Origin: Gammaproteobacteria bacterium
GTDB lineage: Bacteria > Pseudomonadota > Gammaproteobacteria > Pseudomonadales > Azotimanducaceae
DNA length: 64,000 nucleotides
Assembly (NCBI GenBank): GCA_018656865.1
Contig: JABHYO010000031.1
Coordinates: 1 to 64,000 of the forward strand
Direction: 5' to 3'
The position numbers and the translations under genes were made by a program. The notes below the pieces were generated by a model. The model searched no databases. It was not told the DNA's origin and saw only the letters and a program-made list of their open reading frames with translations. Below are positions 41,044 to 58,541 of this stretch, piece by piece (within the stretch, counting starts at the first letter, position 1; every line of letters starts with the position of its first letter).

Positions 41044-42444
41044 ATGCTCATGAAGTTTTCTATACCCGTTGTAGTCCTCATGTTGATCAGTGACGTCCTG
41101 CTCGCTGAAGGTCATTTCGAACTGTCTGCGGCGGATAGGGTCGACCTTGGCCTGACCGTATTCAACGACAACTTTGCAGTGATCATGGATCGCCGGAGGG
41201 TGGCCATGGCGAAAAATGAGATTCGGCTGGAGTTCTCTGACGTCGCTCGGACTATCCAGCCGGAGACGGTTACGCTTCGCACCGACAGGAAAAAAGGGTT
41301 TGTTGCGATACAACAGAATTATCGATATGACCTGCTGAACCGGGAATCGCTACTTGGACGGTTTGTCGGTCGCAAGGTTAAGTATTTCCGGTCACTATTG
41401 GAAAATGGCACTTACGAAAAAGTACTTCGGGAGGGCGTCCTGCTGTCGATCAACCCGGAGATTGTCATGTTCGGTGATGTCATTGAGATCCAGCCTGAAG
41501 GTACGATTTCACTGCCATCTCTGCCGTCAGACCTCAGAACCAAACCGACACTGGTTTTTCTGGGCCACAATTCGCATCAGGGAGCGCAGGAAGTCACCGT
41601 CAGGTACCACGCCCGTGATATTAACTGGGCAGCGGACTATACGCTGACGCTGGCGAAAAAAGGAATGCTCAATGGCTGGGTCACTATTCATAACCGCAGC
41701 GGCTCCGACCTGGCGGTTGACGATTTGAATCTGATTGCAGGCGAAGTCGGGCGAGAGGTGTCATCCCACGCGCCAAAGTCATTGCAACGAGCCATGGTAT
41801 CCGAGATGGCGGCAGATGTGATGGCGCCTGGACGTGCGAAAGCTGGCGACTATCATCGCTATCATTTCGACGGCCCCGTAAATCTACTCAAGAACGACCT
41901 GACCCAGATGCGTCTCGTCACAGCCGACGGCATCAAGGTAGACAAGAGTTACCGTCTGATTTCGAACGTACAAAGATTCCCTGCCGATGGTGTTGAGGAA
42001 CGGTCGCCGGCGGTGGTTCTGACCTTTGCCAACGACAAACGCAACAATCTCGACGTGCCCATTCCAGCAGGTATTGTCCGGGTCTACGAAAGAGATGGTG
42101 TTGACGAGAACTTTATCGGTGAAGCCAGGGTAGGGCACACACCTGCCGGTAGCGAAGTGGAGCTGGTGACGGGGCGGGCATTTGATCTATCCGCGAAACG
42201 TGTACAGAAAGGCTATCAGCGTCGCGGTGATCGTGCTGCCGAGGTTGCCTATAGCATTACGCTGAAGAATGCGACCGACAAGCCGGTAAAGGTTCGGCTG
42301 GTAGAAAAATTTTCAGGCCAGTGGAAAGTGACACAGCAGTCGGGTGAGGGGAGTCGCCTTGATGCCAGAACTCTCGTATTTGATCAGTCCGTTCCGGCAA
42401 AAGGAGAATCACAGTTGGACTATTCCGTCAGGATGAACTGGTAG
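41044..42444 (+). CDS. DUF4139 domain-containing secreted protein
   Basis: Signal peptide, then VTVRYHARDINWAADYTLTLAKKGMLNGWVTIHNRSGSDLAVDDLNLIAGEV...; ends SQLDYSVRMNW. Confidence 0.8.
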   Translation: MLMKFSIPVVVLMLISDVLLAEGHFELSAADRVDLGLTVFNDNFAVIMDRRRVAMAKNEIRLEFSDVARTIQPETVTLRTDRKKGFVAIQQNYRYDLLNRESLLGRFVGRKVKYFRSLLENGTYEKVLREGVLLSINPEIVMFGDVIEIQPEGTISLPSLPSDLRTKPTLVFLGHNSHQGAQEVTVRYHARDINWAADYTLTLAKKGMLNGWVTIHNRSGSDLAVDDLNLIAGEVGREVSSHAPKSLQRAMVSEMAADVMAPGRAKAGDYHRYHFDGPVNLLKNDLTQMRLVTADGIKVDKSYRLISNVQRFPADGVEERSPAVVLTFANDKRNNLDVPIPAGIVRVYERDGVDENFIGEARVGHTPAGSEVELVTGRAFDLSAKRVQKGYQRRGDRAAEVAYSITLKNATDKPVKVRLVEKFSGQWKVTQQSGEGSRLDARTLVFDQSVPAKGESQLDYSVRMNW

Positions 42445-42448
42445 AAGC

Positions 42449-43474
42449 TCAGAGGGGATTGGTCATGTCGTCGAGAGTACGGAAATCGTTCAATCCCACG
42501 AACGTGCCGCCATTTCTCTCGCACAGGGTTCGCATCAGTATGGAGAACTTGATACCTGTTTCCTGATAACGGGGTGGGTTGGCGAATTGTACGGGGAAGC
42601 CAACTGCGTGAATTCTCACCAATCGTTCTCCCTCGTCGTCCGCTCGGTTGATCCTGTCGACAACCTCGACTACGCGCTGAATCGAACGACCGCTGAACTC
42701 GTCGCCAAATACATATAGGCTTATTTTCCTGTCCGGCCGATAGTAAGTGGAGATGGCTTTGGTAATGCCCTCGACCGGTGAAGAGTTGGAGAAGACATTC
42801 CAGGTTTTGAGACGATTGATAATGGCCCTTCTGCGCGTTTCCGTATCAGGAATCCATGAGTTGGCATACTGCGTAAACATATAGTTCCCCATGTCGTTCA
42901 TGACCTGGATTCCCTTGAGGCGTGGGTAGACAGCCAGGGTTTCGGCAACTTTCTGCAACACCAGCGGCCAGGCGTAGTTATACATGCTACCGCTGGTGTC
43001 GATAATGAAGATGACGTATTCGCTATCGACAGGTACACCACCGATCTTGTTGTCATCGCTCCGCTTGTAGTCTGCAAGAAGTTTCGCCATTTCATCGGTC
43101 AGGGACTGCTTTGCATTGGCAAGTCGGCCTTCGATGAGGTTTGCGACCCGAGTCTTGTCCAGGGTGTGCTCATGTTTAGCTTTCAGCGCCTCCAGTTCGG
43201 CATTGAGCAAGACGAGTCGCTCGAGCTGTTCCTGCTGAACGTCTTCCCGGCGCAACATTCTGCGATTGATATCGCGTGTCTCGCCGCGCAGATCAAATAG
43301 ATCCTGTTGCAGCACTGCGAGGTAGCCCTCGAGGTTTTCGATGGATTCTTCAATGACGATGGGTTCGAAAACCTTGGTTAGCACGAGTAGGAGGATGATG
43401 GCACCAAAGCCACAGCTGATAACATCGAGAAAGGAAAGGCTAATACCTTCGATATCGCGCCTTTTGGTCCTCAT
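42449..43474 (-). CDS. VWA domain protein with TolR/ExbD-like N-terminal TM helix (paralog 2)
   Basis: MRTKRRDIEGISLSFLDVISCGFGAIILLLVL..., coiled coil, MIDAS VIFIIDTSGSMYNY; start 43474 gives 4-nt ATGA overlap with the upstream gene. Confidence 0.88.
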   Translation of the reverse strand: MRTKRRDIEGISLSFLDVISCGFGAIILLLVLTKVFEPIVIEESIENLEGYLAVLQQDLFDLRGETRDINRRMLRREDVQQEQLERLVLLNAELEALKAKHEHTLDKTRVANLIEGRLANAKQSLTDEMAKLLADYKRSDDNKIGGVPVDSEYVIFIIDTSGSMYNYAWPLVLQKVAETLAVYPRLKGIQVMNDMGNYMFTQYANSWIPDTETRRRAIINRLKTWNVFSNSSPVEGITKAISTYYRPDRKISLYVFGDEFSGRSIQRVVEVVDRINRADDEGERLVRIHAVGFPVQFANPPRYQETGIKFSILMRTLCERNGGTFVGLNDFRTLDDMTNPL

Positions 43475-44565
43475 GGCCAATCCTCCGGCGGAGACAGAAA
43501 CGAACCACCTGTTATCTGTGCCAGGCGCCAATAGGAAGGTGTGGAGATGGGGTCACCTTCCATCGGGAACAGAATGACATTAACGGGACTTTCGAAAGGC
43601 AACAGTTCAATACTTTCGGTGAAGAGTTCTACCCGTTCTCTGCTGTCGATAACCGTGCGCTTTGGCTCCTCAAGTCCCATGGTAGGCAGACTGTCGACGA
43701 TGAGAAAGATGTTGTCCGGCAGGGGTTCCATACCGGAAGCCAGGTTGAAGGCATGGTGTAGTGAAGTGCCGCCCTGTGGAATTTCCTTCCTTAGGGCTTC
43801 CAAGGCGCCATCGGTATCGGCTCGTTCAGTGGCTCTCAGCCAGCTTGATTCCGTTCCGGCGATCACGGGTTTTGCCTGTTCGTTGAATAGAGCTAATTGA
43901 AAGTAGGATTCCTTTGGCAGGTTGGCGAGAATCCAATCGACAGTGGCGATAGCGCGCTGCCACTTCTTTGATTGCAGTTTTTGATCATCGGGTAGGTTTC
44001 TGCGCCTGATGACATTGACGATTGTCTTATCGAGCATGCTTGCGGAGGCATCAAGCATGATCAGAATATGCTGGCCACCGACCTTCATGCCGGTGAGATA
44101 CTGGCGATCGCCCTCGCCGATAACCGTTCGAAGGGCTGTGCCGGTTGACTCGTCGGCGCCGACGCTACCTTCGAGGTTCGCCGCTTCAAGTTCCAGCTCT
44201 TTTAGTTCTGACTTCAAGCTGTCGATCGTCTGATCCTGGCTGGCACCTTCTGTTTGCAGTGCAGCTAGCACGGCCTCAATTGATCTGATAGTTTCGACCA
44301 GTTTCTGCGCCATATCCTGCGTTGTGACAATCTCGTCATCCTGTTCTTTGACGGTATTTCGGAGAACGATAAGGTTCTCTTTTTCGTTGGTGACCAGCTC
44401 TTCGAGTCGTGTGACTTCCGCCATCACCTGGGCGCTGACTTCTTGAGTGGTGGCTTCGGTCGCGTGGTTAATAACGATATAAATGAGGATGACTGCACCA
44501 AAGCCACAGGACATGATGTCGAGAAACGAAAGGCTGAATATGTTTGCCTCTCGTCTTTTAGCCAT
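43471..44565 (-). CDS. VWA domain protein with TolR/ExbD-like N-terminal TM helix (paralog 1)
   Basis: MAKRREANIFSLSFLDIMSCGFGAVILIYIVI..., coiled coil, MIDAS HILIMLDASASMLDKT. Confidence 0.88.
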   Translation of the reverse strand: MAKRREANIFSLSFLDIMSCGFGAVILIYIVINHATEATTQEVSAQVMAEVTRLEELVTNEKENLIVLRNTVKEQDDEIVTTQDMAQKLVETIRSIEAVLAALQTEGASQDQTIDSLKSELKELELEAANLEGSVGADESTGTALRTVIGEGDRQYLTGMKVGGQHILIMLDASASMLDKTIVNVIRRRNLPDDQKLQSKKWQRAIATVDWILANLPKESYFQLALFNEQAKPVIAGTESSWLRATERADTDGALEALRKEIPQGGTSLHHAFNLASGMEPLPDNIFLIVDSLPTMGLEEPKRTVIDSRERVELFTESIELLPFESPVNVILFPMEGDPISTPSYWRLAQITGGSFLSPPEDWP

Positions 44566-45868
44566 CGGCTGATACCGAGATTGTGATCAGACTTTCACCG
44601 AGTACTTCAATACGATCGCCTGGTTGTAGCTTGTTTGAGTGTTCCGGCGGTTGATCGTTGATGCGAATTCCATTCGGCTCATGGCAGTCCATGATGAGTT
44701 CCTGGTTTCTTGGATAGAACGTGCAGACTGGCTGTTCACTCTGACGCGGCCCCTTCGACAGGTCCGAACCGAGTTTGAAACCGGATCCGATTGCATACGC
44801 ATGGTTCTGCCAGAGTAGATGTGTTGGCGCCCTCCGCAGTGTGCCCATATCTGTGCTCAACTCACCGGAGTCCAGCTGAACGATATGAGCGATGGAACCT
44901 GTCTCACTGGTGAGTTTTTCTCGGTGCAGTTGTGCTGAACCGATCGATTTCATCTCATTCAGATCAAAGGCTTCAACTTCGGGTATCAATTTCAGGGAGT
45001 CCTTCAGTCCGGGAAATCCGCTGAAGTGATGTGACACTAACAGGCTGGCTTCCTCTCCCGCAGGCACTTCTGATCGAATAGCCTGGACGATCTGTGGGTA
45101 GAGGGGTGTGCATGCACGCAGCAGGCTGTCATGTGATACGGCAACAGTGTGTTCCGCGCTACCGGTGGCGAGTTCGAACGAGTGCATGTTGTCCTGTCCA
45201 AGTTTGCCGATCCAGTCAGGCAATTGATTAAAAAGCTGCTGCTCGCTGTCAGCGTCGTGCATAGGGTCGAATCTTGTGGTCTGAATAAACTGGTTGGCGA
45301 TGATGGCTGCCCATCTGTCCCAGAGAGTCGCGAGCCCGGTTTCAAGAATGGTTTTAACGTCCTTCCTGACAAGGGACCCGGTATTGCTCAATCTTGTCAA
45401 CGTTATTGAGTGAAGGTGTATATCAAGGTGCAGCACCACCTGTCTTAGTGGCAGGTTGCTGGCGACCATCACGGAGTTATCGACGACACCTTTCACAGGC
45501 AGGCGACATTCTTTCGCCATACCCAGAAGAAGACCCAGATTTTCCGCCGTGTAGTATCCGGGAACGATGAAAATAACCTGATCTGTCTGTTCCGCCAGGG
45601 GCAGCCAGACATCCTCAAGGTGGGCAAAGGCAAGATCAGCGTGGTGCCTGATATCAGGGGTGCCGTTGCTGAGAGGCGTTGTTGTGAGCTGGCTCCAGAA
45701 ACGATTGTTAGTCCAGCGCGGCAACAGTTTCGCATGCTGAACGGCGGCCTCACCAACCATGAGTTTGTCAACATCCAGTACGGCGAAACCGGGACTGGTT
45801 CTCATCAGGTCTCCGTCCACAGCGATCTGGATTCCTGCATCGTTGATATTAATAACTGCCAGGCTCAA
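44558..45868 (-). CDS. Degenerate actin/Hsp70-like protein with C-terminal FHA-like segment
   Basis: N-terminal MSLAVININDAGIQIAVDG...LMVGEAAVQHA resembles the Hsp70/actin fold start; C-terminal LIMDCHEPNGIRINDQPPEHSNKLQPGDRIEVLGESLITI resembles the second half of an FHA domain. Confidence 0.6.
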   Translation of the reverse strand: MSLAVININDAGIQIAVDGDLMRTSPGFAVLDVDKLMVGEAAVQHAKLLPRWTNNRFWSQLTTTPLSNGTPDIRHHADLAFAHLEDVWLPLAEQTDQVIFIVPGYYTAENLGLLLGMAKECRLPVKGVVDNSVMVASNLPLRQVVLHLDIHLHSITLTRLSNTGSLVRKDVKTILETGLATLWDRWAAIIANQFIQTTRFDPMHDADSEQQLFNQLPDWIGKLGQDNMHSFELATGSAEHTVAVSHDSLLRACTPLYPQIVQAIRSEVPAGEEASLLVSHHFSGFPGLKDSLKLIPEVEAFDLNEMKSIGSAQLHREKLTSETGSIAHIVQLDSGELSTDMGTLRRAPTHLLWQNHAYAIGSGFKLGSDLSKGPRQSEQPVCTFYPRNQELIMDCHEPNGIRINDQPPEHSNKLQPGDRIEVLGESLITISVSADG

Positions 45869-45890
45869 CTTTTTTCTCCTGTATCGCTGA

Positions 45891-46685
45891 TCATGTCTGC
45901 AGATGCCGGACTAGCCGGACGTCGCAGTATTCTTCCGAGTCAAGCGTCAGCCTTTCCTGGGCAAGTTGCAGCTGGTGCAGCAGGAACATGACGATAATGC
46001 TGATAAGGAGTGCGACGAAGGTTGAATTGAATGCCACGCCGAGTGCCTGGGTGACACCGGCGATGTCACCTTGAACGGCTTTGTGGGCCTGGCCCAGCGC
46101 CTGACCGATTCCGCGAACGGTGCCGAGAAAGCCGATAGAGGGTATTGCCCAGGCGATATATCGAATCATGGCGAGTTCGGAATCCAGCCGCTCGGATTCG
46201 GATTCACAGACGGCCCTGACCGCATTGGATACATCCTGAATATTCCTGGTCGATCTGAATCGGTGAAGGGCGGTCAGGAGGGCTCGGGGCAGCAGAAAGC
46301 TCTGCTGTATTTCCGGCAATGCCTGAACCGGGCGGGAAAACTCCCGGGCATCCTCCGGCAGGATGCTGGTTCCCTGATTGATCGGTATCAGGTCAAGCTG
46401 CAGTACGCGCCCTTCCTGAACCGTCTGCATGGTTTTGTAACCCATGAGAGACATTGCCCAGAGGGCAAGGATAAAACAGGCTTCCTGTTCAAAGTCCCTG
46501 ATGACCACGTAGACGGAACGTTCAGGGACATAGTCCGGGTTGGTATTTATCTGCACGGCCTGCTCCTCCAGGATGGCTGTAGCATTGGGCCTGATGATAG
46601 AGACGTAAATGGCGTGAATAATTATCACGGCGATGATGAGTGAGAACAGCTGAAAGATAAATTCAACTGGTAGTTGTTTTTTCAT
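45891..46685 (-). CDS. MotA/TolQ/ExbB family proton-channel subunit
   Basis: AWAIPSIGFLGTVRGIGQALGQAHKAVQGDIAGVTQALGVAFNSTFVALLISIIVMFLLHQLQ; start at the internal Met MKKQLPVEF (46685). Confidence 0.9.
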   Translation of the reverse strand: MKKQLPVEFIFQLFSLIIAVIIIHAIYVSIIRPNATAILEEQAVQINTNPDYVPERSVYVVIRDFEQEACFILALWAMSLMGYKTMQTVQEGRVLQLDLIPINQGTSILPEDAREFSRPVQALPEIQQSFLLPRALLTALHRFRSTRNIQDVSNAVRAVCESESERLDSELAMIRYIAWAIPSIGFLGTVRGIGQALGQAHKAVQGDIAGVTQALGVAFNSTFVALLISIIVMFLLHQLQLAQERLTLDSEEYCDVRLVRHLQT

Positions 46686-46704
46686 GATCTTGTAATCTCC
46701 TCTC

Positions 46705-46935
46705 TCAAATATCGACCGGAAAACTGACGGCGTTGTCGGCGCTGATTTCTTCACTGGGCCGGAAATCCTTGAAGGCCGAACCGAGTTTGCGAAACTTGAG
46801 TTGATCCGCTTCGGGTTGTTTTTCGTCTTCTTCTTCTATCGTTTCAACGGCTACGGTCGCAGGTTCGAGTTCAGTGTCCGCCTCTTCAGCCCAGGTCAAA
46901 AAGGGGAAAAAAAACAGCAGTGGTAGAAATCTCAC
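46705..46935 (-). CDS. Small acidic secreted protein
   Basis: GTG start overlapping the upstream stop (GTGA); VRFLPLLFFFPFLTWAEEADTELEPATVAVETIEEEDEKQPE... signal peptide plus acidic tail, 76 aa. Confidence 0.7.
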   Translation of the reverse strand: MRFLPLLFFFPFLTWAEEADTELEPATVAVETIEEEDEKQPEADQLKFRKLGSAFKDFRPSEEISADNAVSFPVDI

Positions 46936-48992
46936 TCCAAATACCTCGCGATACGGAAACCTACGTCGGGACGGCCATCCGAACCATAGTCCCTGAAGGT
47001 CCATCTTAGCTCGCTAAACCTGCCGTGGGTGTAGTTGGAGCCCCGAATGGCATGATACTCACCGGCTTCGGGACCGACAGGGTCAGTTAACTTCTGTCTG
47101 ACCAGGTCTACACCGTAATAGTCATGCATCCATTCGGACACATTTCCAGCGAGGTCGTACAGGCCGAGTTCGTTGGCGGCGTAGGTTCCCGATGGAGCAG
47201 GTCCGCGGAAGTTGTCGTTGTAGCCTCGTATGCTGTAGGGAACCATGTTCACTGCCGATTCATCTGCGAAGTTGCCCGAACCCTCTATCGGCGGCATGTT
47301 TTCTCCCCATGGAAAACGGGAAGCATCGGTTCCTCCAGCGTAACGTGCGGCCCAAACCCACTCAGCTTCCGTCGGCATACGGTAACCAGTAGTGAAAGGC
47401 CGCTTCAGAATCCATCTGCCGTCCTTTTGTTCATAGGCGGCAGGTAGCTTGTCCTTATCACTGAGCCAGAGGCAGTAGCGAACTGCCTGGTCCCATGAAA
47501 TATTGACGACGGGTCTGTCTTCCTCGGAAAGTAGAGCGCGACCGAGGACGCCTGAATCATGTCCGGGGTCGAACTCGCTAAATAGCTTGTTACTCACTTC
47601 CCGTTCGCCCAGGTAAAAAGCCCGTGTCAGTTCAATTTCCTTCTCAACCTCATTGGAACGTCGACCCGGTTCCCGTCTACCGGCTCCCATTTTCAGAGCA
47701 CCGGGCAAGATGAAGCGGATAGTGTCCCCCTGGGCCGTGGTCAGACGCTGTGGAATAGCGGAAACCTTCGCCGCCTCTTCAGTCTGCATGATGATGTTCA
47801 GCTGTTGTGAGAAACCCGGCTGGGGGATGACCTCTGTCTTGTAGGTGGCGTAGCCGGGTAGTTCGACTTTGATTTTGTGGTTTCGAGCTGTCAGCTCGAG
47901 GGTCTGGTTGGGATCGCCGAAGGGCCTGTTATCCACGAAAAGCTCCCCGCCATCAGGCGATACGCTCAGCTTGATCAGGCCAACGACCGGCTTCAATGTG
48001 AGTCTCAGACTCTGATCCTCTTCGGGAGCGACAGCCAGCTTCCGGGTGAGGTTCTGATATCCTGCCCGGGTCGCAATCAGTTCGTAGTTGCTTGCCGGTG
48101 CGAGTGCGATGGAGAGCGGTGTCTGACCATAGTATTGACCCGATATCGTGATATTGACCAGGTCGGGTGAGGAGCTGACGGTCAGTTTGCCATCCGATTT
48201 TGCCAGGATAATCTCCTCAATCGTCTGATTCTCGCCTGCAATGATGTTGAGGCGCGATTCCCAGGATTTGTATCCTGGATGTTTCAGCAGGATGGTTCTA
48301 TCCCCCTGTAATACCTCCACTGTAGCTGGTGTCCTGGCAAGTTCCTGCTGATCTACCAGAATACTTGCTCCTGACGGATGCGAACTGATTTCCACCATCG
48401 CCCAGGCAGGTTTCAGGCTGACACTCTCTGTTTGCTGCTGGCGTCGACCCTCGACCTTGATTTCAGTCTGGTAGGGTAAGAAGCGGGCGTGGTGGACATA
48501 GAGATCGCGAAGACCGGCTTCAACGTTATCGACAATGAGCGGGGTTGTGCCGACCCGTTCCTGATCGATATAAACGTCAGCACCCTCAATGGCTTCATCG
48601 TCGTAGGTCGTTGTCACCTCGATAATGCCGGGTAGTTTGATCATCGTGAAGGCCAGATCCTGTTCGGGTTCTCCGCTGACTTCTACAGTAGTGCTCAGAG
48701 TCCTGTAACCTTCCAGTTGTGCTGTGATCTCGTAGCTACCCTGCAGCATGAGATAGCGTTCGCCAAGCTGGTATGTGGGCGGACCACCGGAGATTTCCAG
48801 ATTTTCTACGCCTGGCGTGAAATCGAATCGCACGGCTCGTGCGCTAAACATAAAAAGGGCAGCCAGGGTGAGGAGCAGAAAGACAAAGGCGACTCCAACA
48901 ATGACGGGATTCAGGATCAGAAGCGGCTTGCCCGCTGACGCCTTGGCCCGGCTGAAATCAGCAGGTTCGATAAACTTGTTATCGTCAGCCAT
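46932..48992 (-). CDS. TM-anchored multi-PEGA protein with C-terminal FGE/SUMF1-like domain
   Basis: TM (PVIVGVAFVFLLLTLAALFMF), repeated PEGA segments (SSHPSGASILVDQQELARTPATVEVLQG..HPGYKSW), SUMF1 motifs (YRMPTEAEWVWAARYAGG, GLYDLAGNVSEWMHDYY, DVGFRIARY). Confidence 0.9.
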   Translation of the reverse strand: MADDNKFIEPADFSRAKASAGKPLLILNPVIVGVAFVFLLLTLAALFMFSARAVRFDFTPGVENLEISGGPPTYQLGERYLMLQGSYEITAQLEGYRTLSTTVEVSGEPEQDLAFTMIKLPGIIEVTTTYDDEAIEGADVYIDQERVGTTPLIVDNVEAGLRDLYVHHARFLPYQTEIKVEGRRQQQTESVSLKPAWAMVEISSHPSGASILVDQQELARTPATVEVLQGDRTILLKHPGYKSWESRLNIIAGENQTIEEIILAKSDGKLTVSSSPDLVNITISGQYYGQTPLSIALAPASNYELIATRAGYQNLTRKLAVAPEEDQSLRLTLKPVVGLIKLSVSPDGGELFVDNRPFGDPNQTLELTARNHKIKVELPGYATYKTEVIPQPGFSQQLNIIMQTEEAAKVSAIPQRLTTAQGDTIRFILPGALKMGAGRREPGRRSNEVEKEIELTRAFYLGEREVSNKLFSEFDPGHDSGVLGRALLSEEDRPVVNISWDQAVRYCLWLSDKDKLPAAYEQKDGRWILKRPFTTGYRMPTEAEWVWAARYAGGTDASRFPWGENMPPIEGSGNFADESAVNMVPYSIRGYNDNFRGPAPSGTYAANELGLYDLAGNVSEWMHDYYGVDLVRQKLTDPVGPEAGEYHAIRGSNYTHGRFSELRWTFRDYGSDGRPDVGFRIARYLE

Positions 48993-51250
48993 TATCGAAT
49001 CCGCTCTCTGCTGGTAACCGTGATTTCAGGTGCGGGGCGGCCAGCGATCAGGGTCAGGTTCTCCCTCACATCACGGTATCCTGTTCGCTCACCGGTAATG
49101 GTATAGCGCCCCGGTATCAGGTAGACCACTTGATTCTCAACGGTACCGAGGTGTGCATGTTTGCGAACAGTAACCGAAGTTTTACCGTCCGAAAGAATTG
49201 TCACCGGGATTTCTACTCTCGCCGTGGAAATCAGCCTGGCCAGGATGTCGAGACGTCGCTTCAACTCATCCGACGGTTGTTCGACACGCATTGCGTCCCG
49301 GAGCAAGGCAGATGCGGACTGGAGTTCCCTGTCGCTTTGTAAGAGAGGTGGGTCACTCAGGTACTTATCCAGACCCAGGTCGAGCCCAAGTCGCCATTTA
49401 GCCTGTTTCAGTCCGGCCCTGGCAAAATCAAGACTATCGCTGATTGTCAGCGCGGCTTCGTAGCTGGATATCGCTTCCCGCCAGGCACCGTCAACCATAG
49501 ATGCTTCGGCCTTTTTGCGAACATCGGTTATCGCATCACTGGTTTCAGCCTGGGTGACCTGTGACAGACCATCTGCCGGTTCCGTGGAGTCAGGCAAGAT
49601 CTTTTGGGCAGTCGTGAAATGTGAGCGGGCAAGTTCATAATCCTTCACGCTAATGGCCTGAAACGCGAGTGACATAGCCTGTTGAAACTGACTGTGGCGA
49701 ATGGTCTCCCGTACTCGCCCGATGCCGTTAGCGGCAGGCTCCCAGAGTTCATCCATGTCGTGAGCTTTTTCATAGGTTGAAAGCGCGTCATCGAGACTGG
49801 CTTCCTGCTCCAACATCTCTGCACGTCTGACGAGCCTTAGCACTTCGTCAAGATTTTCCGCTCGAATAAGTTTTTTCTTAAGGTCTGCGTTACCTGGTTC
49901 TATTGCGGTAGCGATAGTAAATGCTTCGAGGGCTGCGCGATGGTCGGCATCAGCAAGCGCCTGATCACCGCGTTCAATCTGTGTGGCCAGTTCACCGGGT
50001 ATGCGAGCTAACAAGACTTTGAGGGAGGCTTGAACGGCATTGTAAGTCTCGAGTGATTTTTCCAATTGTCGTTCACGGAACAATTCTTCGGCGGCGTCGA
50101 GCCGGTTCGTGATCACCGTAAAATCATCGTTACCCCAGAGCAGCACACCCTGGTCCTCAAGATCCAGCTGAAGACGCAGGATCTCACGGGCAACTTTCTC
50201 ACCCTCCTGTTGCATAAATTCCAGCCGTGCTGCTGCGAAAGGCGAGACTCCAGGTTCGGTGGACGCTGTATTACTTTGAGCGGGTTGGTTCTGGCTATGG
50301 TCCTGAACGGTGGTATGCGTTTTAGTCGGCACCGTTGTCCTGTCGCTTTCTGGTAGTAGAAAAAAAGTCAGGATAGCCACGACAAGCAGACCGGCTAGTC
50401 CGATCGCTGCGAGTCTGGGGGACACGCCCCGTGATTGGCGAGCTGTCACTGGTGTTTGTAACGAGTACTCAGCAGAAGTTGACTTCGGTGCAGTGAAGTC
50501 GACAGTGGCGATGTGGCTGTCGTCGTCATCAAAATAGCTGGCAAGTTCAGAACGGATGTCCGTCAGACTGACGTTCCGATCAAAAGGTGACTCACTCATC
50601 ATCCGGTTTAGAAGCGGCTCGATCACAGGAGGTAAGGGTGACTCGGCCTGCATGCCAGGCTCCCAGAACCGTCCTGTAAGTACGCTGTAGATCAGGCAAC
50701 CCAGTGAATAGATGTCGTCTGTCTGGTTGGCGGTGCCACGGGAAACGATCTGAGGGCTGAGAAAGTCCCGGTGCCGAGAGTCAGATGACCAATTTGCCGA
50801 GACACCCATACCTGTCAATTTCAGGGTGCGGGAGTGATCGACCACCAGGTTATGTGGGTGAATATTACCGTGGGCAAGACCCAGACCATGAATGTAGTGA
50901 AGCGCTTCGATGGCCTGTTTTAAAATGGACCAGGCATCGTCATCAGTCGCGGAAAATGGTTTTCCACTCGAGATATAGGGTTCAAGCAAATAGGAGAGCC
51001 CGGATTCCAGGCCATAGGAACTCACCAGGTTTATGTTTTCGTGTACAAGACCTCTGGCGGCGTCAACGGACGTCGTCAACTTTTGCCAGTCATCCTCTGT
51101 TGGTGTTGAGAGCAGGACTCTGACGAATACTCGATCACCGGTTTGTTCATTGGTGGCAACCCAGGCTTCACAGCCCGGTGAACTCGAGATCTTTCTGTCG
51201 AGTTTATATCGTGGCGGGAAGGATTGGCCTTCGATGAGATTCGATGTCAT
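48992..51250 (-). CDS. Ser/Thr kinase-fold protein (predicted pseudokinase) with TM, TPR/coiled coil and PEGA-like C-terminus
   Basis: Kinase-fold N-terminus with HGNIHPHNLVVDHSRTLKLTGMG and DDIYSLGCLIYSVLTGRFWEPG; TM RLAAIGLAGLLVVAILTFFLL; TPR-like repeats. Confidence 0.88.
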   Translation of the reverse strand: MTSNLIEGQSFPPRYKLDRKISSSPGCEAWVATNEQTGDRVFVRVLLSTPTEDDWQKLTTSVDAARGLVHENINLVSSYGLESGLSYLLEPYISSGKPFSATDDDAWSILKQAIEALHYIHGLGLAHGNIHPHNLVVDHSRTLKLTGMGVSANWSSDSRHRDFLSPQIVSRGTANQTDDIYSLGCLIYSVLTGRFWEPGMQAESPLPPVIEPLLNRMMSESPFDRNVSLTDIRSELASYFDDDDSHIATVDFTAPKSTSAEYSLQTPVTARQSRGVSPRLAAIGLAGLLVVAILTFFLLPESDRTTVPTKTHTTVQDHSQNQPAQSNTASTEPGVSPFAAARLEFMQQEGEKVAREILRLQLDLEDQGVLLWGNDDFTVITNRLDAAEELFRERQLEKSLETYNAVQASLKVLLARIPGELATQIERGDQALADADHRAALEAFTIATAIEPGNADLKKKLIRAENLDEVLRLVRRAEMLEQEASLDDALSTYEKAHDMDELWEPAANGIGRVRETIRHSQFQQAMSLAFQAISVKDYELARSHFTTAQKILPDSTEPADGLSQVTQAETSDAITDVRKKAEASMVDGAWREAISSYEAALTISDSLDFARAGLKQAKWRLGLDLGLDKYLSDPPLLQSDRELQSASALLRDAMRVEQPSDELKRRLDILARLISTARVEIPVTILSDGKTSVTVRKHAHLGTVENQVVYLIPGRYTITGERTGYRDVRENLTLIAGRPAPEITVTSRERIR

Positions 51251-51276
51251 GGAAACAACCTGATCAAAGCTCGCCC

Positions 51277-52473
51277 TTATTCTACACCGGTCTCTTCAGC
51301 ATATATGTCCCGTAGGATCTGACGCCATTGGGTGTATTGTTCCTCGGCGGTGCCAACCAGTTCAATGGTTCTGCCTTCGATATCGAGAACATAAGGAGTG
51401 ATTTCAGTACCCAGGGACTGGCTCAATTCCCGTAGAGACTCGGCGTGGATCTCTGCTTCCTTACGTCTATCAAGGCCGCTTTTGATGGAACCGATACCGC
51501 CGACCACGGCACCTGCCGCAGCAGCATCACCAGCCCAGGTATCGCTTTCACTACCTGCGGCCAGGCCACCAGCGATTAGCAGTGCTCCACCCAGGAGGCG
51601 GTTCCTCGACTGTCTCTGCATCTCCCTCAACCTGATGGCTTCCTCGTAGGTTGCCTGTCGCCATTCATCATAGGAAGGTTTCATTTCTCGATGAAACCTT
51701 GAGTAATAGTCGTCTAGCGTATCGACAAACAGATACTCCTGTTCCTTGATCCGATCAACGCGCTTCAACATTGTGTCATTCACAGCGGGCAGTTGGGTGA
51801 TGCTGAGCTGACCGCGTTTTGAAGCTTCCAGATAGCCATCGAAAGCGTCAGGTGCCAGATCATTTGCAAATTTTAAATTGGCGATGGTTTTGATGTTGAC
51901 AATCTGGCCCCGTGACATCAGTTCTCGCGCCTCAAGCAGATCGTCTGCGATCTTGTTGTACAGGTCCTGAAAAGGGTCTTCCACGGGTTTCTGATAGGAG
52001 AACTTGCTGGCCAGGTCGTCGTAGGTACGGCGGTACCAGAGTTTCCCGGTAGCGTCATGGGCGCTAATGGACACCTTGATCAGTTCCCCGTCAGACTGAA
52101 CGATACGTCCGGAAATGTGCAGATCTACGGCGTTGGAAGGCTCTGGCGTCACCCTGACGGCACCCCAGTTGCCAGTCAGCTCCAGCGTATCCTTGAGATG
52201 GTAAGCGATGTAGCTGGATTCTGCGCGCCGGACGTCGGGAACGATTAAAGCTTTGTCGATAGCGTCAGGATCGTCAGGTATACCGGGTTCAAGGGGTTCG
52301 ATGCCGATATCCAGCAATTCATCCAGGGGGATCAATGTGCTTGACTGCTTTGCGGGGGTTGAGTTTGAACTAACCACCTGGGTGGTAGTACAAGCGCTTG
52401 AAGTAGCCAGCACAAATACGATGGCGATCACCATTCGCGGCAATTTTAAAAATTTAGTCATCACAGTATCCAT
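51277..52473 (-). CDS. Predicted lipoprotein, conserved hypothetical
   Basis: Signal peptide with SSAC lipobox (VFVLATSSACTTTQ); 398 aa, glycine/alanine-rich hydrophobic stretch near the C-terminus. Confidence 0.75.
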   Translation of the reverse strand: MDTVMTKFLKLPRMVIAIVFVLATSSACTTTQVVSSNSTPAKQSSTLIPLDELLDIGIEPLEPGIPDDPDAIDKALIVPDVRRAESSYIAYHLKDTLELTGNWGAVRVTPEPSNAVDLHISGRIVQSDGELIKVSISAHDATGKLWYRRTYDDLASKFSYQKPVEDPFQDLYNKIADDLLEARELMSRGQIVNIKTIANLKFANDLAPDAFDGYLEASKRGQLSITQLPAVNDTMLKRVDRIKEQEYLFVDTLDDYYSRFHREMKPSYDEWRQATYEEAIRLREMQRQSRNRLLGGALLIAGGLAAGSESDTWAGDAAAAGAVVGGIGSIKSGLDRRKEAEIHAESLRELSQSLGTEITPYVLDIEGRTIELVGTAEEQYTQWRQILRDIYAEETGVE

Positions 52474-52480
52474 TCTCTAC

Positions 52481-53968
52481 CTACAGACCTGCCTTGTAGC
52501 GTTTGTATTCCTCCCAAAGCTTGTTGCGAAGCTCTGGGTTGGTTTCTGCGATTGCTGCTTCTCTCAGTTGCTGGGCGACGATATCGTCTCCCTGGGGATC
52601 GGGGACATCTTCCGGGATTAGCGGTTGTGCTTCATTGTCGGCAGACGCCAGGTCGGCTCCTTCGGGCATTCTTCCCTGCTCAATAACCTGCGGGTCTTCG
52701 AGCATGGTTTCGCCTGTTTCATTTTCGGCAAAGGTACCTTCGTCGTCCCCATTTCCAACATTACCGCCAAGAACGGCGACACCGGGAATGTTCTCTCCGC
52801 TGGTCGGAGCGGGTGTGCTCCCCAGAACTTCTGTTCTTGCCTCAAGGATCTGGTTTTCGAAAATGACGATGGAATCGTTCAGCTCTTTGTCCAGTTCGCT
52901 TTCACCACTATTGGTTCCGCCGCCTCCCTGTCGCCGGCGGCGATCGAACTCAGGCAGTTCTATTCTTGAGTTAAAAATCGAGTCAGTCGCAATAACGATA
53001 GCAACATTGGCATCGTTCAGGGCGCCTTCCGCCTCGTCGATGATCCAATCTTCCTCAGTACTTTCAAATATCTCCCGAACCTCCAGCAGATCCTGTCCGG
53101 CAATGATAATGGCGACCCTGGCGCGAGCTAGCGTGGCCTCCGCTTCTGCAAGTTCGTCATCTGTGGTTGCTGTCTCGAGGATCCCACCTGCGGTCTGTAG
53201 CGATATCCCCGCCTGTTCGAGTGCTTCCTGAGCTGCCCGGATCTCCTCATTGAGGTTGCCCGTCGAACCACTATTGCCGGATTCTGCCATCTCAGCGCTT
53301 TCTTGCTGGCTGCCGCTGGCAGATTCTTCTTCCATCATCATGTCATCAGGCTCACGCATGTTCCCGGGATCGTTCATATCCCCGTCTTGATTGGAGGGTG
53401 AGCCAGCCGATGCGGATTCAGTTGGTTCCTCGAAAATATCTGACTCGGAGTTCGAACTGCTCTCATCTGGTGGCATCATCGGATCTGATTCGCCTCCAGC
53501 CTGACTACTTGCTGATCCAGCGGGTTCGGAAGATCCAGGTATCTGCAGACCGGCATCGGCTACCTTTTTTCCGGCTTTTTTCAGATTCTCAGCGGCTTCC
53601 TGCTGACCCTGTCTATCGGAAGATGTTGTTTGCGGTTCTCCTTCGCCGGAGGGAGTAGACGGCGAAGGCATGGATGGTGATGGCATAGACGGAGATGGCA
53701 TGGACGGAGATGGCATGGACGGAGACGGCGTGGACGGAGACGACGTGGACGGAGAGGGCATGGAAGGTGGAGTTGATCTTGAATCGGATGTTGGGCTGGG
53801 CATCGAAGGCGATGAGGATCGGGAATCCGAAGGCGGGCTTGGCATCGAAGGCTGCGAGCTGGGCGTTGATGGTTCCGCCGACGGTGGTGGTGTGCGGTTG
53901 GGGGAAGAACAGGCCTGCAACAACAGGACCAGGACGCCGATTGGAACTATTCGATTCATAACTGTCAT
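52481..53968 (-). CDS. Predicted lipoprotein with Ser/Pro/Met-rich repeats and acidic low-complexity region
   Basis: Lipobox LLQACSS; repeats PSMPS; acidic/Ser-rich central region; C-terminal coiled coil. Confidence 0.8.
   Translation of the reverse strand: MTVMNRIVPIGVLVLLLQACSSPNRTPPPSAEPSTPSSQPSMPSPPSDSRSSSPSMPSPTSDSRSTPPSMPSPSTSSPSTPSPSMPSPSMPSPSMPSPSMPSPSTPSGEGEPQTTSSDRQGQQEAAENLKKAGKKVADAGLQIPGSSEPAGSASSQAGGESDPMMPPDESSSNSESDIFEEPTESASAGSPSNQDGDMNDPGNMREPDDMMMEEESASGSQQESAEMAESGNSGSTGNLNEEIRAAQEALEQAGISLQTAGGILETATTDDELAEAEATLARARVAIIIAGQDLLEVREIFESTEEDWIIDEAEGALNDANVAIVIATDSIFNSRIELPEFDRRRRQGGGGTNSGESELDKELNDSIVIFENQILEARTEVLGSTPAPTSGENIPGVAVLGGNVGNGDDEGTFAENETGETMLEDPQVIEQGRMPEGADLASADNEAQPLIPEDVPDPQGDDIVAQQLREAAIAETNPELRNKLWEEYKRYKAGL
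53655..53770. repeat. 15-nt tandem repeats encoding (PSMPS)n
   Basis: Plus-strand GGCATGGACGGAGAT-type units repeated with minor variants within the 52481..53968 gene. Confidence 0.85.
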
Positions 53969-54175: not shown

Positions 54176-54871
54176 TTGTTCTTATCAAATCGAGGGCGGG
54201 CGTTGATTAGAGTATGGCTGGCAGTATTGGTACTGCTGCTGCAGGCATGCACAACCAGCGTGGTTGTTGAAGGAACCGTGCCCACGCCGCTTGTCAGTAA
54301 AATACCTGCACGTATCGGCGTCTACTATTCCGATGAATTTCGGAATTTTCGCTATCGGGAGGTCATCCAGGATGCCGGAACCTGGAATATCGATCTGGGC
54401 AGCCAGAACCTGACGTTTTTTCGTCATCTCATGGGCTCACTCTTCAGAGGTGTGCAGGAGGTTCATGAGCCGCCCCTGACTCGGGATGAAATGACAGAGC
54501 TCGATGGGGTCATCATTCCACGAATTGAGAAGTATGGTTTTCTTACGCCGCGTATTTCGGGATTGAAATTCTATTCGGCCTCCATCGAGTACCGTATTGC
54601 GTTGTACGACAAAGCCGGTAAGAAAGTTGGTGATTGGAATATCATTGGCTACGGCAAAAGTGAGGGCGGCATGTTCAGTACTGAAGAAGCCATTAACGAA
54701 GCGACGGTATTGGCGATCAGGGATGGTGGAGCGCGAATCGCCATTGAACTGATTGATCAGCCTGCGGTGCGAGATTGGATTAATAGACTTGAATCAATTG
54801 AACCAAAACCCGGTCTAAATGCTACTAAACAAACAGATATCTCCGTAGATGAGGAAGAGGACCAGTCATGA
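54176..54871 (+). CDS. Predicted lipoprotein
   Basis: TTG start, RVWLAVLVLLLQACTTS lipobox; 231 aa. Start could also be the TTG near 54203. Confidence 0.75.
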   Translation: MFLSNRGRALIRVWLAVLVLLLQACTTSVVVEGTVPTPLVSKIPARIGVYYSDEFRNFRYREVIQDAGTWNIDLGSQNLTFFRHLMGSLFRGVQEVHEPPLTRDEMTELDGVIIPRIEKYGFLTPRISGLKFYSASIEYRIALYDKAGKKVGDWNIIGYGKSEGGMFSTEEAINEATVLAIRDGGARIAIELIDQPAVRDWINRLESIEPKPGLNATKQTDISVDEEEDQS

Positions 54872-55521
54872 AACGACTGTCTTTCCTGCTGGTTGCGCTA
54901 TTTTCTGTCAGTGGTTGCGTGTCTTCACGCATTGAACAGTCTCGGGAAGCCACCACTGGAATAACCAGCGAGGAGGCTATGGTGCTTCTGGGACGTGCCA
55001 GTTACAACGAAAAACAGACTGAAGATAGTTTTACGGATTGTATCGCCCAGGCACTGAATCAGGGTAGCAATCCGATTCGACTGATTCCGCAGGAGAAGTT
55101 CAAAGACGATCTGTACCCCTGGTTTGAGCCGAGAACAGCGCCAACATCAGCAGATGAACTTGGTCGCTTGTTTGCGCAACCCGGCGTTAAGAATCAGATT
55201 GATACCGCTAAGGTGCGTTACCTTGCGTGGATTGATGGCGACACTGTAAAAATCGACAGCGGTGGTTCTATGAGTTGCACGATCAGCTCGTTCGGTGGTG
55301 GATGTTTTGGTATGAGCTACTGGGAGGAAGACGCTTCCTACGAGGCCTCCATATGGGATCTCCAGTCCATGACATCGACGGGCCAGATAAGTGCTGACGC
55401 CACCGGTACGTCATACATTGCAGGACTTATTGTACCTATTCCCATATTGGCGAGACCCGGAAATGCAGCATGCAAAGGGTTGGCGAACCAGCTTCGAGAG
55501 TTTATAACCGGCGAAAGCTAG
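54868..55521 (+). CDS. Predicted lipoprotein
   Basis: ATG overlaps upstream stop by 4 nt; MKRLSFLLVALFSVSGCVSS lipobox. Confidence 0.78.
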   Translation: MKRLSFLLVALFSVSGCVSSRIEQSREATTGITSEEAMVLLGRASYNEKQTEDSFTDCIAQALNQGSNPIRLIPQEKFKDDLYPWFEPRTAPTSADELGRLFAQPGVKNQIDTAKVRYLAWIDGDTVKIDSGGSMSCTISSFGGGCFGMSYWEEDASYEASIWDLQSMTSTGQISADATGTSYIAGLIVPIPILARPGNAACKGLANQLREFITGES

Positions 55522-55530
55522 GCTTCTTTA

Positions 55531-55822
55531 ATGGACGTCTACGGGGCATTTGTACCCCGTTTTCGTTGATCAGGTCCCATGTTCATTAAACCAGGTATCG
55601 CTGAGGGCTCTTTATCAAGACGCTGAAGGCTCTTTATGGACGTCTACGGGGCATTTGTATCCCGTTTTCGTTGATAAGGTCCCATATTCATTAAATCAGA
55701 TACCGCTGAAGGCTCTTTATGGACGTCTACGGGGCATTTGTACTCCGTTTTCGTTGATCAGGTCCCATATTCATTCAACCAGGTATCGCTGAAGGCTCTT
55801 TATCAAGACGCTGAGGGCTCAT
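55531..55822 (+). repeat. About 83-bp direct repeat, three copies, with a 22-bp spacer after copy 1 and a partial spacer copy at the end
   Basis: ATGGACGTCTACGGGGCATTTGTAYCCCGTTTTCGTTGATMAGGTCCCAT... begins at 55531, 55636 and 55719; TATCAAGACGCTGARGGCTC after copy 1 and after copy 3. Confidence 0.92.
55541..55564 (+). terminator. Rho-independent terminator in repeat copy 1
   Basis: ACGGGG-CATTTGTA-CCCCGT followed by TTTTCGTT, 20 nt downstream of the 54868..55521 stop. Confidence 0.75.
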
Positions 55823-57252
55823 TGCTCTGTTGGGACGTCCGTGGGTCCTTCTATGGGTTCCTCTATGGGTTCCTCTAAGTCTGCTACGGGCTCAGGGGCT
55901 GGAGATGATGTTTCCTTCGCAAGAACCTGAAAGGGTTGATAGAGCATCAATCCTTCGGTTGCAATGATTTCTGCATCGATGATTCTGGGTCTGTATCTGG
56001 CGCCGCGGATGCGCAGACGCAGTGATTTGACATGTTCGTTAGGCACGTTTCTTTCCAGGATCTTGACCTGGCTGACCTTTCCGTCCGATGTCACCGAATA
56101 TTCCAGGCTGACGAAAAGAGGCTCGCCTTTCTCGGCGGCATCTGGATACCTGCTCAAATAGAATACGGGGTTAGATCTGGGAAAGAGCCTGACCGGTGCA
56201 CCAAAAAGAGCAACGGCGACTGCCTGGGTTTCGGGGCTTTCCTGGAGTAGATCCCAGGCCCGCAAGTAAGTTTCCGAAGCCCGTTGATCCGATGTGATGA
56301 TGTATAGATCGCCTAGATCAACTAGAGCCTGAGCACGATCTGTCGTGTCTGAATCCGGATTCGACTGGACGATCTCAAGCGATCGTTCGAGAGCAGCCTC
56401 GGCCTCTTTCCGGTTTGTAAATTGCAGCATTCTTGCACTCGCCAACCCACGTAGTGGTTGAACCAAACGCAAATCGTTCTCGCCGAAATTCTGTTCTATG
56501 ATCCGGACTGACCGGTAGTACATGTCGACCGAGTACTTGAATAGAAGGTCCCTCTGAAGGCGAAATTCAGTCTGGGCCACTGATGGCGCATTGCTTCCAC
56601 GGGATGCAAAGTAACCGCCTAGATGATTCAGAATAGGTAGCAGCTCTGTCGAGTCTGGTCCGTAAACCTGTTCGGCTACCCGGAGGCCGAATCTCTGTTC
56701 GCGATCTGCTGCAGCGAGATTCCCCTGTTTCAGGTTTAATTTCGTCAGCCAGTCGACAATAGCGATCTGATCGGCTGCATAAACGCCCTCATTGCGATGC
56801 ATGATGTGCTGTGCGCGACGGAAGCTATCCTGAGCTTCTGTTGTCATTTCTAATGAAAATTCAGTCAGAGCCTTGGCCATGACAGCACTGATCAGCACAG
56901 TCGAAAATGGATTGTTGCCCTGTTCCATCAATGACAAGCCGCGCTCTATGGCAGAGAGTCCCAGGTCGTAGTCTTCTGCTGCGCTTTGTATGATGCCGTG
57001 GTTCACAAGAATCTGGCCAAAAGTATTGATTTGGGATTCTCTGAGTGGTTCAGCCTGTTCGAGTAATGTTTGGGACAGGGTCAGGGCATAGTTGAATTCG
57101 GCGTTGCGGGCATGTGTGACAATCCGGTCCGCTAGCAACTGTTGTTTATGTTCGAGTTTGGGTTCATAGAAATATGCGAGAGTATCCTGTTCGGCAGATA
57201 GCGGCAGGCATACCAGGCAGGTCAATGCGAGTGCCAGGAGGGTTTTATTCAT
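55819..57252 (-). CDS. Secreted TPR protein with TonB C-terminal-like domain (paralog A)
   Basis: Signal peptide; RRAQHIMHRNEGVYA; VSLEYSVTSDGKVSQVKILERNVPNEHVKSLRLRIRGARYRPRI resembles TonB_C. Confidence 0.75.
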   Translation of the reverse strand: MNKTLLALALTCLVCLPLSAEQDTLAYFYEPKLEHKQQLLADRIVTHARNAEFNYALTLSQTLLEQAEPLRESQINTFGQILVNHGIIQSAAEDYDLGLSAIERGLSLMEQGNNPFSTVLISAVMAKALTEFSLEMTTEAQDSFRRAQHIMHRNEGVYAADQIAIVDWLTKLNLKQGNLAAADREQRFGLRVAEQVYGPDSTELLPILNHLGGYFASRGSNAPSVAQTEFRLQRDLLFKYSVDMYYRSVRIIEQNFGENDLRLVQPLRGLASARMLQFTNRKEAEAALERSLEIVQSNPDSDTTDRAQALVDLGDLYIITSDQRASETYLRAWDLLQESPETQAVAVALFGAPVRLFPRSNPVFYLSRYPDAAEKGEPLFVSLEYSVTSDGKVSQVKILERNVPNEHVKSLRLRIRGARYRPRIIDAEIIATEGLMLYQPFQVLAKETSSPAPEPVADLEEPIEEPIEGPTDVPTEQ

Positions 57253-58541
57253 TCAGCTCTCCCGCTTCGCGGTCCAAATGTTTGGACGAGGGACACATTT
57301 CTGGTTGCGATTGGGATGCCGTTCTCGAGGGCTGGCCGGTAATAGGCTCTCTTCAAGGCGTTGGTTACAAGGCGGTTGAGTCTGACAGGTGCGTTTGAAT
57401 CTATCACTTCGATATCCTCAAGATTACCGGTTTCCGAAACAGTAAAGCTGAATTCTATTTTCAGGTCTTCCTTGTTTTTTTCGAGGCGCAAGGGCAACGC
57501 GAAATTCAGTTGATCCTCATTGAAGAGAATCGGGTTACCGACCAATTTGTAGGTTCGCTTTGCTCTCTCATAGGTTTCATGCACATCTCGGGTGGAAAAA
57601 CCGAGATGCGAATTATCGGGATCAAAAATAAACCAGTGAGGTTCCTGCTCAGGTTCTTGCTGGAGCTCCTGTTCCGTCATCCGTTCCAGGCGTCTCGTGG
57701 GCAATCGCGAATCCTGAGAGAGGCGGTAGATTTTAACCTGTGCGGATTGGGGTCGATCAAGCGCCCGCCGTATAGTCAACGGATGAGGGTCCGTTGACTG
57801 CTTTAGAGGTGAGAGCTGGTGAGCTTTCATAAAGAAGGTCGCAGCTTGTTTTGACCTCCCACCCAGGGTCAGGGTATCCGCTATCTCGAGATAGATTGCC
57901 GTCAGGGTTTCAGGCTGATGCTCGAAGTCTATTTTCTCGACGACTTCTAGCAGGCGCTTCGGGTTGCAGCATATGCCTTCGAGTCGTTTTGCCCGGTTTT
58001 CCATGATGATAAAGGGGGAGGCATCCTGTCCCGTTTCTTCCGCCAGGGATCCAGCTTTCTTTAGTAGCTTTCTGGCTCTGCGCGGCTGACCCGTATTCAT
58101 ATACCAGTCAGCCAGTTCGGAAAAGGCATTGAAGACATCAGGATGACTGTCTTCATAGGCGTGACGGGTTACGAAAAAGGCAAATTTTTGCTGACGGTTG
58201 GCATCGTCATACTCTTCGGCCTGAAGGGCGAGATCAGTCATGAGTTCAACAATCTGGAGCTGCCTTGGTGTGTAAACACCTTCATTTCGATGAGCGACGT
58301 TTTGGGCTCGCTGCAGCGAATCGATGGCATCTTCCGTCGTGCCGAATTCAAGTTGTAACCTGGCCAGTTGCATCAGCGGTTCGAACAGATCCTGTGAAAA
58401 AGGACCACGTTCGCGCGCGAGGGACTCAATGGAGTCTCGCGTCGTTTCTATGGCTTCCAGGTTTTCCCTGTCATCTGCTCTAAGCGGTAAGGCAGCGATC
58501 AGGAGCAATACCCAGAGCCCAATAAATTTCCTGAAAGGCAT
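57249..58541 (-). CDS. Secreted TPR protein with TonB C-terminal-like domain (paralog B)
   Basis: Signal peptide; RAQNVAHRNEGVYT; IEFSFTVSETGNLEDIEVIDSNAPVRLNRLVTNALKRAYYRPALENGIPI = TonB_C-like. Confidence 0.8.
   Translation of the reverse strand: MPFRKFIGLWVLLLIAALPLRADDRENLEAIETTRDSIESLARERGPFSQDLFEPLMQLARLQLEFGTTEDAIDSLQRAQNVAHRNEGVYTPRQLQIVELMTDLALQAEEYDDANRQQKFAFFVTRHAYEDSHPDVFNAFSELADWYMNTGQPRRARKLLKKAGSLAEETGQDASPFIIMENRAKRLEGICCNPKRLLEVVEKIDFEHQPETLTAIYLEIADTLTLGGRSKQAATFFMKAHQLSPLKQSTDPHPLTIRRALDRPQSAQVKIYRLSQDSRLPTRRLERMTEQELQQEPEQEPHWFIFDPDNSHLGFSTRDVHETYERAKRTYKLVGNPILFNEDQLNFALPLRLEKNKEDLKIEFSFTVSETGNLEDIEVIDSNAPVRLNRLVTNALKRAYYRPALENGIPIATRNVSLVQTFGPRSGRAE

Follow-up and report, generated by a model that had tools for sequence, protein, structure and literature searches.

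A conserved nine-gene operon joining a TolQ-like subunit to a pair of VWA proteins, a candidate envelope motor of Gammaproteobacteria

Described motors and the nine-gene operon

To our knowledge the ion-driven rotary motors number only a handful, and it is the partners that decide what each of them does. The protonatable aspartate of such motors normally comes from ExbD, TolR or MotB. The operon described here consists of nine genes on the minus strand of a 64,000-nt stretch of a gammaproteobacterial genome (called the window, part of contig C208 in a genome of 3.7 Mb and 221 contigs), and it encodes a TolQ-like subunit together with two different VWA proteins that each have a single transmembrane (TM) helix.

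The closest described system is found in section 8 and Fig. 4c-d of a paper from 2025 (PMC12204202, Mol Biol Evol), where tolQ-like genes without tolR are reported with pairs of heterologous TPH-vWA proteins, the query coming from Idiomarina, and no function is assigned. The vWA proteins reported there carry a TolR-like helix with a conserved proton-binding aspartate, and in the AlphaFold 3 (AF3) models of tolQ with the TPH-vWA pairs the two aspartates are placed in a ring of threonines (PMC12204202).

In the window nine minus-strand open reading frames (ORFs) run from 53968 to 42449, where a first, sequence-only reading of the DNA had placed them, and recomputing the gaps returned exactly the values of that reading (7, 26, -1, -4, 19, 22, -8 and -4 nt). 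SML starts with a GTG at 46935 and TOLQ starts at 46685. The genes are named in order of transcription:

LP1, 52481-53968 (-), lipoprotein with a Pro/Ser-rich low-complexity region and a conserved C-terminal motif
LP2, 51277-52473 (-), lipoprotein in which a domain folded like TolB-N precedes a long coiled-coil hairpin
PK, 48992-51250 (-), N-terminal pseudokinase, one TM helix (residues 280-298) and a C-terminal part with TPR and PEGA-like segments
PEGA, 46932-48992 (-), protein anchored by a TM segment, with five PEGA repeats and, at the C-terminus, an FGE-fold domain that lacks the active-site cysteines of FGE
SML, 46705-46935 (-), exported acidic protein of 76 aa ending in EEISADNAVSFPVDI, the conserved part being the C-terminal tail
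TOLQ, 45891-46685 (-), proton-channel subunit of the MotA/TolQ/ExbB family (MotA_ExbB, 1e-15)
HSP, 44558-45868 (-), cytoplasmic protein of the Hsp70-NBD (nucleotide-binding domain)/actin fold, its phosphate loops degraded, possibly with an FHA-like tail
VWA1, 43471-44565 (-), single TM helix with an ExbD-like Asp16, coiled coil, and a predicted periplasmic VWA domain with a metal-ion-dependent adhesion site (MIDAS)
VWA2, 42449-43474 (-), single TM helix with an ExbD-like Asp17, coiled coil, and a predicted periplasmic VWA domain with a MIDAS

The operon fits the description of the TPH-vWA family, having a tolQ-like gene without tolR or exbD, two different vWA proteins as a pair, and the aspartate of the transpore helix; the set is also carried by the Alteromonadales relatives Pseudoalteromonas, Thalassomonas and Thalassotalea. 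The text of PMC12204202 covers the motor and the vWA pair only. In its main text the terms kinase, sulfatase, PEGA and Hsp70 are absent and a small-protein partner is not mentioned, and the same holds for LP1, LP2, PK/TPR, the PEGA-FGE protein, the SML tail, HSP and the adjoining genes LPa, LPb and M48. No named system for the locus was found in the open-access literature searched, where this paper was the only one to turn up; the works found to cite it were a review and an unrelated paper. The sequence-only reading had called the machine undescribed, which has to be narrowed: the motor core was published in 2025, but the rest of the machine, including the SML tail, appears to be undescribed within the literature covered.

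Tol-Pal (TolQRA-TolB-Pal-CpoB) is similar in its TolQ-family motor, and the TolB-N-like domain of LP2 and the TPR and TonB-C domains nearby add to the likeness, but the operon has no ExbD-family TolR, TolB propeller or Pal/OmpA domain (no Pfam match in the nine proteins). A complete tolQRAB-pal-cpoB operon is present elsewhere in the genome, on contig C99, which rules out that the locus replaces Tol-Pal. Zorya ZorAB likewise combines a MotA-family A subunit with a B subunit other than ExbD, whereas the present operon lacks the Zorya effector genes, is core chromosomal and has its VWA domain on the putative B subunit. The GldKLMN system of type IX secretion and gliding shares the 5:2-type motor and the FGE-fold partner; it differs in that no GldM is found among the Pfam matches of the operon, the FGE protein is TM-anchored and the proposed axle is made of VWA proteins.

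Conservation of the unit, the motor residues and the partners

The nine genes are inherited as one unit. All nine are present in 64 of the 66 related loci with at least 9.9 kb of upstream sequence, a clustering far beyond chance, and the order is identical in 65 of the 66, the exception being L048 where HSP has moved ahead of SML and TOLQ. Median intergenic gaps across these loci are -4 to 25 nt, and in twenty loci from diverse genera the gene order is nearly unchanged. Pairwise distances for six genes of the set are correlated at 0.80-0.93 (79 loci), as expected under co-inheritance. The expectation that the genes would be conserved together was thus borne out by their neighbourhoods. Counts of promoters and terminators at the operon show no clear excess over shuffles.

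In its family the operon is core and not patchy. VWA1 was found in 138 of 151 genomes of the family, and in 104 of the 107 that have at least 90% completeness and little contamination, with 36 of 37 genera represented. A collection of named genomes gave 539 relatives of VWA2, of which 80 were kept, among them Halioglobus, Parahaliea, Pseudohaliea, Seongchinamella, Pseudoalteromonas denitrificans, Thalassomonas and Thalassotalea; the nearest named relatives of the window are uncultured Gammaproteobacteria/Pseudomonadales, one of them labelled K189A clade. A family of another class (13 genomes in a sample of the phylum) has the order LP1-LP2-PK-PEGA-TOLQ-VWA1-VWA2; it lacks HSP, and the SML that separates PEGA from TOLQ is very short. 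Some members of the window's own family have, in addition to the main operon, a diverged one of like design (L207-L213), from which HSP is also missing and whose VWA1 has 28-36% identity to that of the window. The core set is LP1, LP2, the TPR/PEGA protein, PEGA-FGE, SML, TOLQ, VWA1 and VWA2; HSP and the kinase domain count as additions, since HSP is absent from the distant and paralogous versions and the kinase domain from 56 of 88 relatives.

The assignment of TOLQ to the TolQ/ExbB family, proposed from the translation alone, is confirmed by Pfam, the match to PF01618 (MotA_ExbB) scoring 58.1 bits at a cut-off of 22.9. Two threonines, in GTVRG and AFNST, are invariant in 106 sequences (T190 and T223, counting one residue before the start methionine); when TOLQ is aligned with the genome's own TolQ and ExbB, the second threonine is shifted relative to its counterpart there. 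The TM helix of the VWA proteins in the window reads SLSFLD[VI][IM]SCGFGA[IV]IL and its aspartate is invariant, D16 in 109 of 109 VWA1 and D17 in 116 of 116 VWA2 sequences. Both proteins had been read as TM-VWA proteins, and this holds: VWA_2 is matched by VWA1 at 1.5e-5, and for VWA2, matched at only 0.14, the domain is accepted because the MIDAS residues are invariant. The MIDAS, made up of DxSxS and a downstream aspartate, is intact in both (D172, S174, S176 and D291 in 109-114 VWA1 sequences; D159, S161, S163 and D258 in 116 VWA2 sequences). None of the four ExbD/TolR genes of the genome lies on the contig of the window, and the TolQ/ExbB genes elsewhere in the genome are on contigs that carry an ExbD/TolR gene. 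The VWA pair is a well-supported candidate for the role of B subunit, because the helix aspartate is invariant, the helices align with ExbD in hhalign (with modest support) and the contig has no ExbD/TolR gene. As judged from sequence a motor mechanism is likely. PDB sequences searched with profiles of TOLQ, VWA1 and VWA2 returned either no matches or none beyond coiled coils and chance hits.

SML had been described as a small secreted acidic protein, which it is, and it also proves to be a core part with a nearly invariant end. Of 95 loci, 92 encode a tail of the form [FY]Px[DN]I-COOH in the stretch from PEGA to TOLQ. FPVDI is the version in 66 of these, and in most loci an ISxD is found shortly upstream; the chance rate of the pattern is 1.3% per 500 bp. 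FPVDI followed by a stop occurs once in the whole genome, at the SML tail (46705-46722, minus strand), and the paralogous operons have an LPxDI tail in 7 of 7 cases. In the other class and in a distant gammaproteobacterial group the entire SML can come down to 52-66 residues, made up of a hydrophobic stretch and then the tail. Versions of that size may well be missed by gene callers. The natural reading is that SML would be a docking peptide acting through its tail, and at a guess the receptor could be a VWA MIDAS or the FGE-fold domain.

Three of the partners carry folds with lost active sites. PK was read as a TM pseudokinase with TPR and PEGA-like parts, which is what the window encodes, but the kinase domain is optional, being present in 32 and missing in 56 of 88 relatives. 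The Pkinase match is 2.9e-15 with HGN for HRD and TGM for DFG, and the window has R, N and G at the positions of the VAIK lysine, the HRD aspartate and the DFG aspartate; in 32 sequences aligned at these motifs the HRD aspartate is retained in 3 and the DFG aspartate in 8. The loss of catalytic residues rules out an active kinase. PEGA shows five PEGA repeats (9e-45) and an FGE-sulfatase match (3.4e-36) with a domain-level match to GldK (5e-25), so the multi-PEGA TM protein with FGE fold stands with the correction that the domain is without its catalytic cysteines: the corresponding stretch RGSNYTHGRFSELRWTFRD contains no cysteine, and at most one is found in the domain in 95 of 96 sequences. 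Catalysis as an FGE is thereby ruled out. The AlphaFold2 model of HSP (pLDDT 94.1) matches nucleotide-binding domains of Hsp110/DnaK in Foldseek (E 2e-16, TM-score about 0.57-0.59), which upholds the proposed actin/Hsp70 fold; the FHA-like tail proposed with it is weakly supported by sequence, with weak matches to FHA chains (E 0.013-1). NDAG and DIHLH replace the Gly-rich phosphate loops of HSP, and the D10 column is 96% aspartate.

LP1 has a signal peptide and the lipobox LLLQAC, a lipobox-like site being found in 51 of 82 sequences, and its C-terminal motif DD..A.Q.REAA..E.P...KLW.EY..Y is conserved over 82 sequences. In LP2 the cysteine C28 is invariant (52 sequences). The AlphaFold2 model of LP2 (pLDDT 84) has as its top Foldseek match TolB (4r40_A, probability 1.00, E 1.2e-3, TM-score 0.17), followed by many other TolB entries and LptE. 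In the model this likeness is that of a shared domain fold and not proof of a TolB function.

Proposed envelope motor and competing readings

The observations can be read, with about even confidence, as a trans-envelope machine that is driven by protons, belongs with the 5:2 rotary motors and pulls on outer-membrane lipoproteins. This envelope motor is proposed because the unit is conserved with an invariant TM aspartate and invariant TOLQ threonines and no ExbD/TolR gene on the contig, because LP2 resembles the TolB N-domain, because LPa, LPb and an M48 protease similar to BepA accompany the operon, and because the published AF3 models (PMC12204202) independently put the aspartate pair in the threonine ring. 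The sequence-only reading is upheld in taking the genes for one conserved unit that centres on a TolQ-like motor and has predicted periplasmic VWA and PEGA parts. Stoichiometry, rotation, contacts and the outer-membrane task are inferred. Five TOLQ subunits would form a wheel, and one VWA1 with one VWA2 a mixed axle in which each contributes a protonatable aspartate; proton flow would make the axle turn or tilt, and the coiled coils would pass the movement on to both VWA domains. The MIDAS sites of these domains might then take hold of partners, for which LP1 and LP2, taken as outer-membrane lipoproteins, are the most likely candidates. The two PEGA proteins (PK and PEGA) would serve as a periplasmic scaffold, SML would dock by its FPVDI tail, and on the cytoplasmic side HSP and the pseudokinase would regulate the machine or provide a platform for its assembly. 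The task would probably lie at the outer membrane or wall, most likely in its organisation and parallel to Tol-Pal. Somewhat short of even is our confidence in the narrower proposal of an unnamed machine apart from Tol, Ton, Mot, Gld and Zor, with an obligate VWA1-VWA2 axle and an output through docking of the FPVDI tail on a VWA MIDAS or on the inactive FGE domain.

Some results weigh against the envelope motor. The hhalign support for the ExbD-like helices is modest for VWA2 (D17 on the ExbD aspartate, P 0.005) and weak for VWA1 (P 0.04). The TolB match of LP2 is restricted to one domain, at the low TM-score and the E of 1.2e-3 given above, and the fold is common to LptE. A Pfam scan of the nine proteins found no known peptidoglycan-binding domain.

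An unlikely alternative, though the best of the others, is a type IX core-like machine for secretion or surface assembly, where the motor would move an FGE-fold ring protein in order to export or move a surface component. The GldK match of the FGE domain fits this, and a motor with an FGE-fold protein and lipoproteins recalls GldK-GldLM-GldN, but FGE is a broad superfamily, the PEGA-FGE protein has an N-terminal TM helix whereas GldK and GldJ are outer-membrane lipoproteins, and an outer-membrane channel is absent from the gene set; a search for the SprA/Sov translocon gave no match, and neither did the control of that search. Still less probable is a motor for surface adhesion or gliding with VWA domains like those of known bacterial adhesins. 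A possible role in gliding has been suggested for a related family of vWA transducers (PMC12204202) and the MIDAS sites are intact, yet the VWA domains are predicted to be periplasmic, behind a TM helix and a coiled coil, and the set lacks a large surface adhesin. Ranked just below is a static scaffold of TOLQ and VWA proteins without ion drive, a dead relative of ExbBD; this would be in keeping with the pseudokinase, the FGE domain without cysteines and the degraded phosphate loops of HSP, but a scaffold would not need an aspartate that is invariant in 109 and 116 sequences nor channel threonines invariant in 106. A Zorya-type anti-phage defence in which a ZorA/ZorB-like motor senses envelope damage is highly improbable, for although TOLQ has a weak match to ZorA (4e-4) and PK is similar to kinases found in defence systems, those kinase matches are generic and to a degraded domain that most relatives lack, and no nuclease or helicase effector is in the set. 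A defence system is rejected on the core distribution together with the absence of VWA2 homologues from 72,556 plasmids and 50,697 phages.

If the envelope motor is real, the axle of such a machine can be a heterodimer bearing adhesion-type domains, and the defined peptide tail of SML provides a handle on the coupling step. The operon belongs to the core genes of a large, mostly marine family and occurs beside an intact Tol-Pal, and the fixed list of parts makes an anonymous motor testable by deletion and structure.

Adjoining genes and more distant relatives

The nine genes form a conserved unit, but the set extends beyond the nine to which it had been limited. Five further genes adjoin the operon in the window between 54176 and 60175:

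LPa, 54176-54871 (+), lipoprotein, divergent in the window; at the loci of Halieaceae and Alteromonadales it is the gene immediately after VWA2
LPb, 54868-55521 (+), conserved lipoprotein adjoining LPa
two TPR genes, 55819-57252 (-) and 57249-58541 (-), Pfam TPR_12, the second with TonB_C (6.8e-6)
M48 metalloprotease, 58742-60175 (+), Peptidase_M48 (5e-34) with a partial BepA match (1.8e-33)

The gene order of the operon in Halieaceae and Alteromonadales is TPR-LP1-LP2-PK-PEGA-SML-TOLQ-HSP-VWA1-VWA2-LPa-LPb-M48. A related TPR gene opens the operon in other genera, and the M48 homologue that follows LPb is 32-36% identical to the M48 of the window. On the other side a gene for a DUF4139-like protein (41044-42444, plus strand) converges on the operon; several genera of the window's clade have it in this position, whereas Halieaceae do not.

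The TOLQ profile, run at E 1e-20 on an even sample of the class, matched 24 of 274 genomes, and the four weakest matches have other gene contexts. More distant TolQ-like genes (L164-L167, 82-94 bits) are in other contexts, with a weak VWA match near L165 and L166, and are possibly another branch of the same kind of motor. A TOLQ relative of the same family (L172, G363:C39) is without a VWA pair and lies near large ORFs of 657, 922 and 1592 aa. At L205 (G000:C121) genes for ExbB and ExbD directly precede an ORF of 966 aa, the start of which resembles an ABC transporter (MsbA-like).

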